Positions 29,183 to 30,958 of a DNA stretch of 64,000 nucleotides are shown here, one piece after another. Each line of letters begins with the position of its first letter. The first letter of the stretch is position 1. The translations under genes were made by a program, and so were the position numbers. Source of the stretch: Gammaproteobacteria bacterium (GTDB taxonomy: Bacteria; Pseudomonadota; Gammaproteobacteria; Pseudomonadales; Pseudohongiellaceae); assembly GCA_018661465.1 (NCBI GenBank), contig JABJIC010000018.1, forward strand, positions 62,001 through 126,000. Direction: 5' to 3'. The notes under the pieces were generated by a model. The model saw only the letters and a list, made by a program, of their open reading frames with translations, made no database searches and was not told the DNA's origin.

Positions 29183-29258
29183 GGGGCGTTAGCTCAGTCG
29201 GTAGAGCAGTTGGCTTTTAACCAATTGGTCGTGCGTTCGAGTCGCACACGCCCCACCA
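29183..29258 (+). tRNA. tRNA-Lys (anticodon UUU)
   Basis: This 76-base cloverleaf has a GGGGCGT/ACGCCCC acceptor stem, a D-loop with AGCTCAGTCGGTAGAGC, the anticodon loop CTTTTAA giving anticodon UUU, a T-loop GTTCGAGTC and an encoded CCA end. In Pseudomonas the tRNA-Lys gene next to queC is a known insertion site for genomic islands. Here no integrase follows, and I see no second copy of the tRNA 3' end downstream. Confidence 0.97.
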
Positions 29259-29288
29259 TTTTCTTTTTCTCCTTGTGTTCTTTTGTTG

Positions 29289-29312
29289 CCAGCCTTCGGG
29301 CTGGTGCTGTCG
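29289..29312 (+). repeat. REP-like hairpin, copy 1
   Basis: CCAGCC-TTCG-GGCTGG forms a 6-bp stem with a stable UUCG loop and is followed by TGCTGTCG. Copy 2 at 29532-29555 has the same stem and a similar 3' flank (TTCTGCCG). Confidence 0.6.
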
Positions 29313-29325
29313 CGTTATACTTTTT

Positions 29326-29452
29326 GGTTTTGTTGGAGAGTCTGGCTGTGCTTCTTACCGGCACGCTCGAGCACATCCATGTGGCGCTTCGCTTCGGCCG
29401 TCCATGGCCGAAGAGAGCCGTCCAGAAACACAGCCAAACTCTCCTTGAAACC
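29326..29452 (+). repeat. Structured palindromic element, copy 1
   Basis: An outer stem pairs 29335-29350 with 29429-29444 (15 of 16 positions). It can be extended by GGTTT/AAACC to the ends given here. Inside lie short stems (TTCT with AGAA, GGC with GCC), the conserved 32-base segment at 29362-29393 that contains CACATCCATGTG, and a hairpin at 29392-29413 with stem CTTCGGCC and loop GTCCAT. The same 32-base segment recurs inverted in copy 2. Confidence 0.85.
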
Positions 29453-29531
29453 GGATGTTTCGTTACTTATTCAAATCGGATCCTATTTGCATCTGCGTAT
29501 TGATGGTGGACGTGTTTGGGGTAGGGGATTA

Positions 29532-29555
29532 CCAGCCAGACGGCTGGTTCTGCCG
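29532..29555 (+). repeat. REP-like hairpin, copy 2
   Basis: CCAGCC-AGAC-GGCTGG followed by TTCTGCCG. Same orientation as copy 1, with the loop sequence changed and the stem kept. Confidence 0.6.
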
Positions 29556-29609
29556 TGTGAGCTGGTTAGGGTTGTATGCTGAAAGAATCTTCTACCTTCC
29601 ACACTATGA

Positions 29610-29723
29610 GGGAGGGGGTTGGATAGTTTCCTGAGTGACTCTCTGAGGCCAGGGACGGCCTCAGCGAAGCGCCACATGGATGTGCTCGAGCGTGTCACGA
29701 AGGAAGCTATCCAACCCCCTCCC
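29610..29723 (-). repeat. Structured palindromic element, copy 2 (inverted)
   Basis: The outer stem pairs 29610-29626 with 29707-29723 in 17 perfect pairs, and continues with 29628-29632 on 29701-29705. The inner stem GTGAC/GTCAC lies at 29635-29639 and 29694-29698. The hairpin at 29643-29664 has stem CTGAGGCC and loop AGGGAC. The 32-base segment 29663-29694 is the exact reverse complement of 29362-29393 in copy 1. Outer stem sequences are unrelated to those of copy 1. Confidence 0.85.
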
Positions 29724-29854
29724 GCCCAGCTACAGAAAAGAACACTAGACTGAACGATAGCTGTCATTTCCCTCAGTAGTTAAAAATAACACTACACCGC
29801 CCCATTCATAACAATCCCAATCCCTGTGATAAACTACGCCTTCGTCAAATCGGC

Positions 29855-30958
29855 ATGAGAATATTCATGAGTGAAGTAGAAACACCAGAAACAGATGATC
29901 GCTTAGCTGCGGATACTGACCTGGTGCGCAATTATTTAGATAAAGCGATTTGCCCACCTCAGATGAGCGAGGCGGAAACAGCGCGTTATATTTCTTTGAT
30001 TAAGGAATTGCTTAAGTCGAAGAACGCGCGACTTGTTGCTCACTACTATACCGATTCAGTACTGCAGGACCTCGCTGAGGAAACTGGCGGCTTTGTCGGC
30101 GACAGTTTGGAAATGGCGCGTTTTGGTCGAGATTGTGATGGGGAAACTCTGGTGGTAGCCGGAGTTCGGTTTATGGGTGAGTCTGCGAAGATTCTTAGTC
30201 CGCAGAAGAAAGTATTGATGCCGACTATTGAAGCCACCTGCTCACTGGATATTGCCTGTCCTATCGATAAGTTTTCAGCATTTTGTGACCAACATCCAGA
30301 CCGCACTGTCGTGGTCTATGCAAATACCTCTGCGGCTGTGAAGGCGCGCTCTGATTGGGTGGTAACTTCGAGTATTGCGCTTGATGTGGTTGAGCATCTA
30401 ATGGAGCAGGGTGAGAAAGTGCTATGGGCGCCTGATCGACACCTTGGATCATATATTCAAAAAGTAACCGGGGCAGACATGCTGCTTTGGGATGCAGCTT
30501 GTATTGTTCATGAAGAATTTAAGGCTCGAGGCTTGAAGGATATGCTGCAGATGTATCCGGACGCCGCTATCTTGGCTCACCCGGAATCACCTGACGCGGT
30601 GCTGGAAATTGCGGACCATATTGGCTCTACAACTCAAATTATTAATGCTGCTCGAGATCTGCCCAATAAAGACATAATCGTTGCAACTGATCAGGGGATT
30701 TTTCATAAGTTGCAACAAGTAGCTCCGGATAAGAATTTCATCGTTGCGCCAACGGCGGGAAATGATGCTACCTGTCGTAGCTGTGCTAACTGTCCTTGGA
30801 TGGGTATGAATACGTTAGAGAATCTTTATCATTCTCTAAAGACGGATAGCAATGAAATTGAAGTGGACGCAGAATTGGCAAAGAAAGCCATGATCCCGCT
30901 TCAGCGTATGTTGGATTTTGCTGCAGAACTACAGATCAAGGTGAAGGGTAAGGCCTAA
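29855..30958 (+). CDS. nadA: Quinolinate synthase
   Basis: NadA condenses iminoaspartate with dihydroxyacetone phosphate to quinolinate, using a [4Fe-4S] cluster, in NAD synthesis. The 367-residue protein shows [34 protein letters not shown], the first cluster Cys region [11 protein letters not shown] and the C-terminal [15 protein letters not shown]. The start may be ATG 29855 or 29867; neither has a strong ribosome site. It is the first gene after the tRNA-Lys spacer, so the hairpin region may supply its leader. Confidence 0.96.

Follow-up and report, generated by a model that had tools for sequence, protein, structure and literature searches.

Two copies of a structured element lie between a tRNA-Lys(ttt) gene (29183..29258, plus strand) and nadA, which encodes quinolinate synthase (29855..30958, plus strand), in the window, that is, the whole 64-kb stretch of DNA analysed here; both genes, one upstream and one downstream, are probably incidental neighbours. 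Copy 1 spans 29335..29444 and has its AYGGAY strand, defined by the loop motif, on the minus strand, and copy 2 spans 29610..29723 and has it on the plus strand, so that the copies face away from each other across an unstranded spacer of 165 nt (29445..29609). The preliminary description had reported two facing copies with an exact 32-base common segment, and the core of copy 1 (29362..29393) is indeed the reverse complement of the core of copy 2 (29663..29694) over 32 nt, as read from the sequence and a repeat search, neither core being assigned a strand. The repeat search of the window also returned arms of 76 nt that are 82% complementary (29362-29437 and 29619-29694), and an outer stem of copy 2 that is 86% complementary (29610-29644 and 29689-29723).

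On its AYGGAY strand, each copy consists of a variable outer stem, a short inner stem, hairpin 1 with eight pairs and a weak hairpin 2 with three pairs adjoining its loop, over a length of 110-114 nt; this layout was read from sequence, fold, repeat search and alignment. In copy 1, the hexaloop of hairpin 1 is ATGGAC on an 8-bp stem (29400..29405, minus strand; sequence and fold), and that of hairpin 2 is ATGGAT on a weak 3-bp stem (29375..29380, minus strand; sequence and alignment). Copy 2 has an outer stem of 17 pairs, and its hexaloops are AGGGAC in hairpin 1 (29651..29656, plus strand; sequence and fold) and ATGGAT in hairpin 2 (29676..29681, plus strand; sequence and alignment). Folding gave -57.6 kcal/mol for copy 1 (29330-29450, + strand; z -5.35) and -72.2 kcal/mol for copy 2 (29606-29727, - strand; z -7.81), and in neither case was any of 200 shuffled sequences as stable. 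Intrinsic terminators were set aside as an identity for the elements, neither arm being followed by a T-run in the sequence of both copies. Open frames at 29283-29582 (+) and 29483-29767 (-) cross the palindromes and have the peptide SSTSMWRFA in common; such frames are probably spurious and could give rise to false hypothetical proteins.

A search by the core alone found four copies in the window genome (3.26 Mb), two in the window, a third on contig 2 and a fourth on contig 4. The latter two were collected without regard to their arms, and only these four own copies are free of arm-selection bias. Among them, 139 of 140 cells pair, and double changes occur at 16 of 35 pairs, compared with a mean of 8.0 in 500 shuffles, none of which reached 16, and with one to six pairs in a control in which the partner was shifted by 1-3 columns. 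The hairpin and stem replacements that had been described for the window pair, with stems that differ and still pair, are likewise present in the sequence. Five of the six non-wobble mismatches in the four copies are A.G or G.A, counted irrespective of tandem arrangement, and the GGA-to-GGA distance is 25 nt in all four, being mostly 23 elsewhere. In 53 copies from genome G352, 37 of 42 pairs show double changes, in 392 cells against a shuffle mean of 97.8, with the caveat that these copies were picked by a detector demanding complementary arms, which thus misses decayed copies. By ORF reading, of the copies on contigs 2 and 4, one is flanked by divergent genes, and convergent ysxC- and polA-like genes flank the other. 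There is no tRNA within the 3-kb loci of these two copies, so the proximity to tRNAs that had been raised did not extend to them; the nearness of the window pair to tRNA-Lys looks incidental, and a tRNA-linked element was set aside.

The detector, defined as two CANGGANG hairpins plus complementary flanks, made two calls in the 64-kb window, exactly the two copies, and 61 in 980 kb of a relative, compared with none in six 980-kb Markov sequences. In 980 kb of G352, a strict detector found 60 elements, and extrapolation from these gives about 260 copies per G352 genome, which supersedes a figure of about 600 per genome derived from 19 and 22 elements in stretches of 144 and 180 kb. The exact twin-loop pattern CATGGATG-N8-38-CATGGATG occurs in 111 of 293 genomes of the window's order, an upper bound for presence by this pattern, because some matches are due to chance or lie in genes. 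The high-copy genomes are clear by the same pattern, led by G324 with 106 copies (52 forward and 54 reverse; none for the reversed-pattern control), and the window genome itself scores zero because its hairpin 1 loops differ.

Further copies, which the preliminary description had proposed to seek in the genome and its relatives, thus exist: besides the four in the window genome, whose arms pair, the layout, in which a long variable stem encloses two hairpins with ANGGAN hexaloops, is recurrent across Gammaproteobacteria. At least 38 flagged folds were obtained among 118 stretches of named genomes, a few of the flagged rows being tandem repeats and not an element of the TwoAYGGAY/YPAL type (see below); the flagged stretches include Luteimonas, Stenotrophomonas maltophilia, several Pseudomonas, Alteromonas, Glaciecola, Moritella and a Ruminiclostridium MAG. 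A 20-nt core pattern, with three mismatches allowed, matched in 27 of 97 relatives. When 15 of these loci were folded, the element was found in four (L020, L029, L035 and L044), and the remaining 11 look like chance matches; seven of the 15 belong to the window's genus, with the element in G018 and G021 among them. Spread by plasmids was set aside, since blastn searches of plasmid sequences with one G324 element and with window copy 2 as queries gave no match.

The genomic context was analysed mainly in G352, whose genes were called by codon usage. None of the 60 elements detected in its 980 kb lies mostly inside a called gene. Whatever their orientation, the elements lie close to stop codons, with median distances of 40-60 nt, and only 3 of 59 occupy divergent gaps, which is rare compared with 88 divergent gaps among the 316 gaps of at least 150 nt; a cruder and smaller set from G324, G343 and G221 gave 6 of 51 in divergent gaps. 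Neighbouring elements less than 400 nt apart are arranged as (-,+) in six of six cases in G352, and those farther apart are mixed (+- 17, ++ 14, -+ 12, -- 10). Across seven groups, neighbours within 550 nt comprise 26 (-,+), one (+,+) and no (+,-) pairs, orthologous pairs included. The window pair is (-,+), as are two clostridial pairs, another clostridial pair being (+,+). Contigs 5 and 12 of G221 (L090 and L092) hold tandem same-strand copies with near-identical arms 250-340 nt apart, unlike the (-,+) pairs elsewhere. Near an element of G055, a strong Rfam match to the 5' ureB sRNA (122.6 bits) was recorded at L011:1048-1334.

To compare the two strands, arms were aligned without credit for wobble, which makes the mismatch count strand-neutral. 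On the AYGGAY strand, stem mismatches comprise 255 G.U against 26 A.C in 152 detector calls, 119 against 7 in the 60 elements of G352, and 330 against 33 in 195 elements of seven groups, these three sets being overlapping. By group, the G.U:A.C counts are 7:0 for the own copies, 52:2 for G324, 187:12 for G343/G352, 23:1 for G221 and 31:6 for other loci of the order; they are weaker in the named genomes (28:11) and too small to judge in Clostridia (2:1). The orientation of G352 elements on their contig is balanced (32:28), and their orientation to genes is near random, which makes it unlikely that the G.U excess stems from a replication or transcription bias. A ratio of about 10 to 1 on the AYGGAY strand thus indicates that one strand is the selected fold. 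This strand would most simply be selected as RNA; G.U makes up about 6% of pairs in the 152 detector calls, in our judgement an RNA-like level. Single-stranded DNA tolerates G.T better than A.C, and selection on single-stranded DNA would likewise favour G.T over A.C.

Elements at loci common to two species could be compared directly, because contig 10 of G343 and contig 1 of G352 are syntenic, with alignment blocks mostly 76-91% identical. For 13 of 19 G343 elements, the detector also finds an element at the corresponding position in G352, and at further positions an element folds and fails the detector. In ten elements common to both genomes, with helices of at least six pairs, Watson-Crick double changes account for 46 of 66 and 40 of 67 changed pairs in the two directions, and the same comparison gave 9 and 12 G.U against 2 and 4 A.C. 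With helices of at least four pairs, the counts were 11 and 18 G.U against 10 and 10 A.C, and with weak helices included they were 21 and 27 against 17 and 17; this last count is noisy, and helices of at least six pairs were used for that reason. The G.U/A.C asymmetry, the double changes between orthologs and the pairing counts of the four and the 53 copies all uphold the preliminary description's proposal that a folded single strand is under selection, as opposed to simple duplication.

The same two genomes provide evidence of mobility. Among the common loci, the element is inverted at one and has different arms at another, which suggests that the element was replaced in place. Near-identical arms and core occur at separate G352 loci, such as 402711 and 591241. 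An inverted repeat of 19 nt is found on both sides of 591241 and on one side of 402711; such terminal repeats, which in a MITE would be common to the copies, accompany a minority of G352 copies, and short inverted repeats lie beside some copies. By these sequence features, some copies look like transposed duplicates. One site is filled in G352 and gaplessly closed in G343, a second candidate empty site looks like a deletion scar, and neither of the two candidates has a clear target duplication. Between G324 and G352, eight elements could be aligned and four have no counterpart, the genomes being too diverged for junctions to be read. Where G343 has an element, G352:C1:131520-131906 (L137) carries a different, tandem palindromic repeat, with the stem AGGAGGCCA...TGGCCTCC and without AYGGAY loops. 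The option of a mobile REP-like sequence, one of those listed in the preliminary description, is borne out as far as mobility goes by the dispersed copies, the duplicates at different loci and the sites filled in one species and empty in another.

Loops were counted by stem and flank context only, contig 1 of G352 (980 kb) having been chosen by synteny and not by loop; a first count (103 of 105 and 62 of 62, with seven unpaired-stem matches dropped) had included G324 and G343 loci fetched by loop pattern, and the census was therefore redone on the G352 and G343 contigs. On the G352 contig, the hairpin 2 loop is ANGGAN in 54 of 56 cases (the exceptions being ATGAAT and ATGGTC; another five context matches, which lacked a paired stem, were left out), and the hairpin 1 loop is ANGGAT in 41 of 41; the corresponding counts on contig 10 of G343 are 15 of 15 for hairpin 2 and 8 of 8 for hairpin 1. 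Position 2 of the loop is variable in both hairpins and position 6 in hairpin 2. An insert of about 73 nt with GGA-loop hairpins follows directly after the hairpin 1 ANGGA in seven of seven copies examined (including L082:13168-13240 on contig 10 of G343 and five places on contig 1 of G352); this stretch has many long matches within the genus, and it may be either a subfamily or a loop-targeted insertion.

According to the accessible part of one study, RsmE/CsrA ligands are ANGGAN hexaloops whose N positions vary, the sites that CsrA bridges lie 10-63 nt from each other with an optimum above 18, and most SELEX hairpins have at most four pairs (PMC7652899). The ANGGAN hexaloops and the 25-nt spacing of the own copies fit this form, and the 7-8 pairs of hairpin 1, compared with the four or fewer of most SELEX hairpins in that text, count against CsrA. 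A motif-based CsrA proposal has already been published for TwoAYGGAY RNA, as an excerpt of PMC4333381 indicates. The csrA gene is present in the window genome and in 31 of 31 genomes tested in its order, with or without elements, so its co-occurrence there cannot discriminate; it was also found in eight of nine genomes of named loci. In the order of the Ruminiclostridium MAG, csrA occurs in 25 of 29 TwoAYGGAY-positive and 25 of 29 negative genomes, or in 18 of 19 genomes with matches over the cut-off and 32 of 39 others; it was not found in G409 (TwoAYGGAY over the cut-off) or G354, two genomes whose completeness is not established. Co-occurrence with csrA does not support CsrA binding, and on loop sequence and spacing we regard CsrA as a tentative candidate ligand of the two loops, slightly harder to accept than to doubt.

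Sequence analysis as such establishes the dispersal of the element, near-identical copies at separate loci, an intergenic position near stop codons, strand-specific selection of the fold, and a near-invariant A and GGA with a free N. On these grounds, the window structures are very probably copies of an RNA-folding mobile repeat of the TwoAYGGAY/YPAL type that is non-coding. The AYGGAY strand would be transcribed, and its RNA would fold into one long hairpin, in which a variable outer stem, apparently kept paired by compensatory change, carries a stable hairpin 1 and a weak hairpin 2 with an ANGGAN hexaloop each. The two loops would most likely dock to both RNA-binding faces of a CsrA/RsmA dimer; the RNA might then serve as a small CsrA trap or rely on CsrA for its own stability, and some gain presumably maintains the element. 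Taken as a whole, a mobile repeat of this type, an RNA from the AYGGAY strand and loops docking a CsrA/RsmA dimer together make up the best explanation, one that we hold to be probable with some reserve.

The strongest competitor is a selfish repeat acting at the DNA level, in which a transposase or recombinase would recognise the hairpin of one DNA strand as it is replicated, the ANGGAN loops being the ligand of that enzyme and the RNA having no function. Such a repeat would account for dispersed and near-identical copies at different loci, for positions near stop codons with few elements in divergent gaps and near-random gene orientation in G352, and for the terminal inverted repeats in a subset of copies of one genus; the tolerance of single-stranded DNA for G.T over A.C suits it as well. 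However, double changes keep pairing at loci common to two species, which is unexpected for inert resident copies, the G.U share resembles that of RNA, and a search covering the Y1/HUH transposase family PF01797 found no member in several element-rich genomes. We consider this reading unlikely, if still to be taken seriously. A further speculation, to which we give still less credit, is a selfish RNA: the folded AYGGAY transcript itself would be copied to new sites in a SINE-like manner and carry paired CsrA ligands, YPAL, TwoAYGGAY and window-type repeats would form one superfamily in Gammaproteobacteria and Clostridia, and an extended variant would add GGA loops within hairpin 1. If so, CsrA traps would be scattered in their hundreds through element-rich genomes.

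A cis-acting mRNA 3' element, whose hairpin protects or destabilises the transcript of the preceding gene as proposed for YPAL and ERIC, would suit the short distance from stop codons in G352 and the crude count in G324, G343 and G221, which leaned to sense (23 against 13 in co-directional gaps). In G352, however, orientation to the upstream gene is 34 against 25 (p 0.30) and that in co-directional gaps 24 against 22, and yet selection on the fold is strongly strand-specific, which makes this explanation improbable. For the same near-random orientation, and because the window genome's own copies stand in differing contexts, the structured 5' or 3' leader of flanking genes suggested in the preliminary description is not supported. 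A neutral palindrome whose arms stay perfectly matched through template switching or conversion from one to the other would produce the blocks of paired changes seen in them, but it is very hard to credit, since arm copying predicts no G.U excess on one motif-defined strand, where 255 against 26 are seen, and leaves the near-invariant loops unexplained.

The mismatch asymmetry shows that one of the two strands is maintained as a folded structure. Should CsrA bind, mobile repeats would add or remove CsrA sites genome-wide, a direct route by which they could tune a global regulator. CsrB/RsmZ-type RNAs carry many CsrA sites. Like these CsrA-sequestering RNAs, as far as the sources consulted describe them, the window elements have GGA in hexaloops with a spacing fit for a CsrA dimer; they differ in that CsrB/RsmZ is one regulated gene, whereas the window elements are a dispersed multicopy repeat with two loops whose CsrA binding is predicted only.

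The elements also resemble REP/RAYT sequences and the R0/R1/R2/R178 repeats of P. fluorescens, which the available part of PMC2718517 presents as high-copy intergenic palindromes that are rare between divergent genes. REPs, however, are 20-40 nt long with a GTAG or CGTC tag in the passages available from PMC3733652, and the window elements, with 110-114 nt and two inner hairpins, fall outside them in length and layout. A link to a RAYT transposase, raised in the preliminary description, found no backing, because no Y1 transposase was detected at E up to 0.001 in the element-rich G181, G221, G269 and G313, and a REP/RAYT identity was set aside on that ground. The same search at E 0.001 (PF01797) was negative in G018 and G021, all six genomes having elements or twin-loop matches; for G000 itself, two Y1 matches were recorded, of which one contains a stop.

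Closer parallels are found in the Yersinia palindromic repeats YPAL/RU-2, reportedly treated by De Gregorio et al. in 2006. The RU-2/YPAL sequence printed in PMC2759123 forms a long stem that encloses an AAGGAT hairpin and, after it, a weak ATGGAT hairpin flanked by TTTACGGCG. Like the window copies, YPAL/RU-2 is an intergenic mobile repeat with internal inverted repeats and the same two-hairpin fold, core motifs being compared by eye; it is about 168 nt long compared with 110-114 nt, and its outer arms differ. The consulted portion of a review (PMC2229807) describes YPAL as mobile, in or beside dyad symmetry and with target duplications of 3-26 bp; the two candidate empty sites compared between G343 and G352 showed no clear duplication. 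Most Yersinia genomes have 37-144 copies, according to an excerpt of PMC2847712.

The other near relative is TwoAYGGAY RNA (RF01731), introduced by Weinberg et al. 2010 (PMC2864571) and, in the accessible parts of the sources, catalogued as a probable RNA and not as a mobile repeat. The corresponding excerpts give it one stable and one weak hairpin (PMC11661157) and tandem G.A mismatches (PMC4333381). As far as these texts go, it has in common with the window copies two terminal A-N-GGA-Y loops, a long, poorly conserved and variable outer stem, G.A mismatches and the pair of a stable and a weak hairpin; (-,+) pairs, like that in the window, occur in Clostridia. TwoAYGGAY has the AYGGAY loop twice, as does copy 1 with ATGGAC and ATGGAT, whereas copy 2 has AGGGAC, which is not AYGGAY, beside ATGGAT. 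Against RF01731, copy 2 scored 34.3 bits and copy 1 32.5 bits, both below the gathering cut-off of 43, and an Rfam search of the contig 2 and contig 4 copies and four G324 loci gave no TwoAYGGAY match at E 0.05. At that E value, 5 of 58 genomes of relatives have a match, one over the cut-off (control, 0 of 14), and in the order of the Ruminiclostridium MAG the motif is multicopy, with matches in 29 of 58 genomes, 19 of them over the cut-off, and up to 19 matches. Our literature search, beyond whose reach lay subscription papers and De Gregorio 2006, found no report joining TwoAYGGAY with YPAL or describing the strand asymmetry. The nearest described families are thus Rfam TwoAYGGAY and YPAL/RU-2; in view of the sub-threshold RF01731 scores, the multicopy clostridial TwoAYGGAY and the same fold in RU-2/YPAL, the window elements are placed as a variant of the TwoAYGGAY/YPAL kind and not as members of RF01731, which ties an orphan Rfam motif to the YPAL mobile repeats and to repeats that are abundant in many Gammaproteobacteria and for which we found no name.
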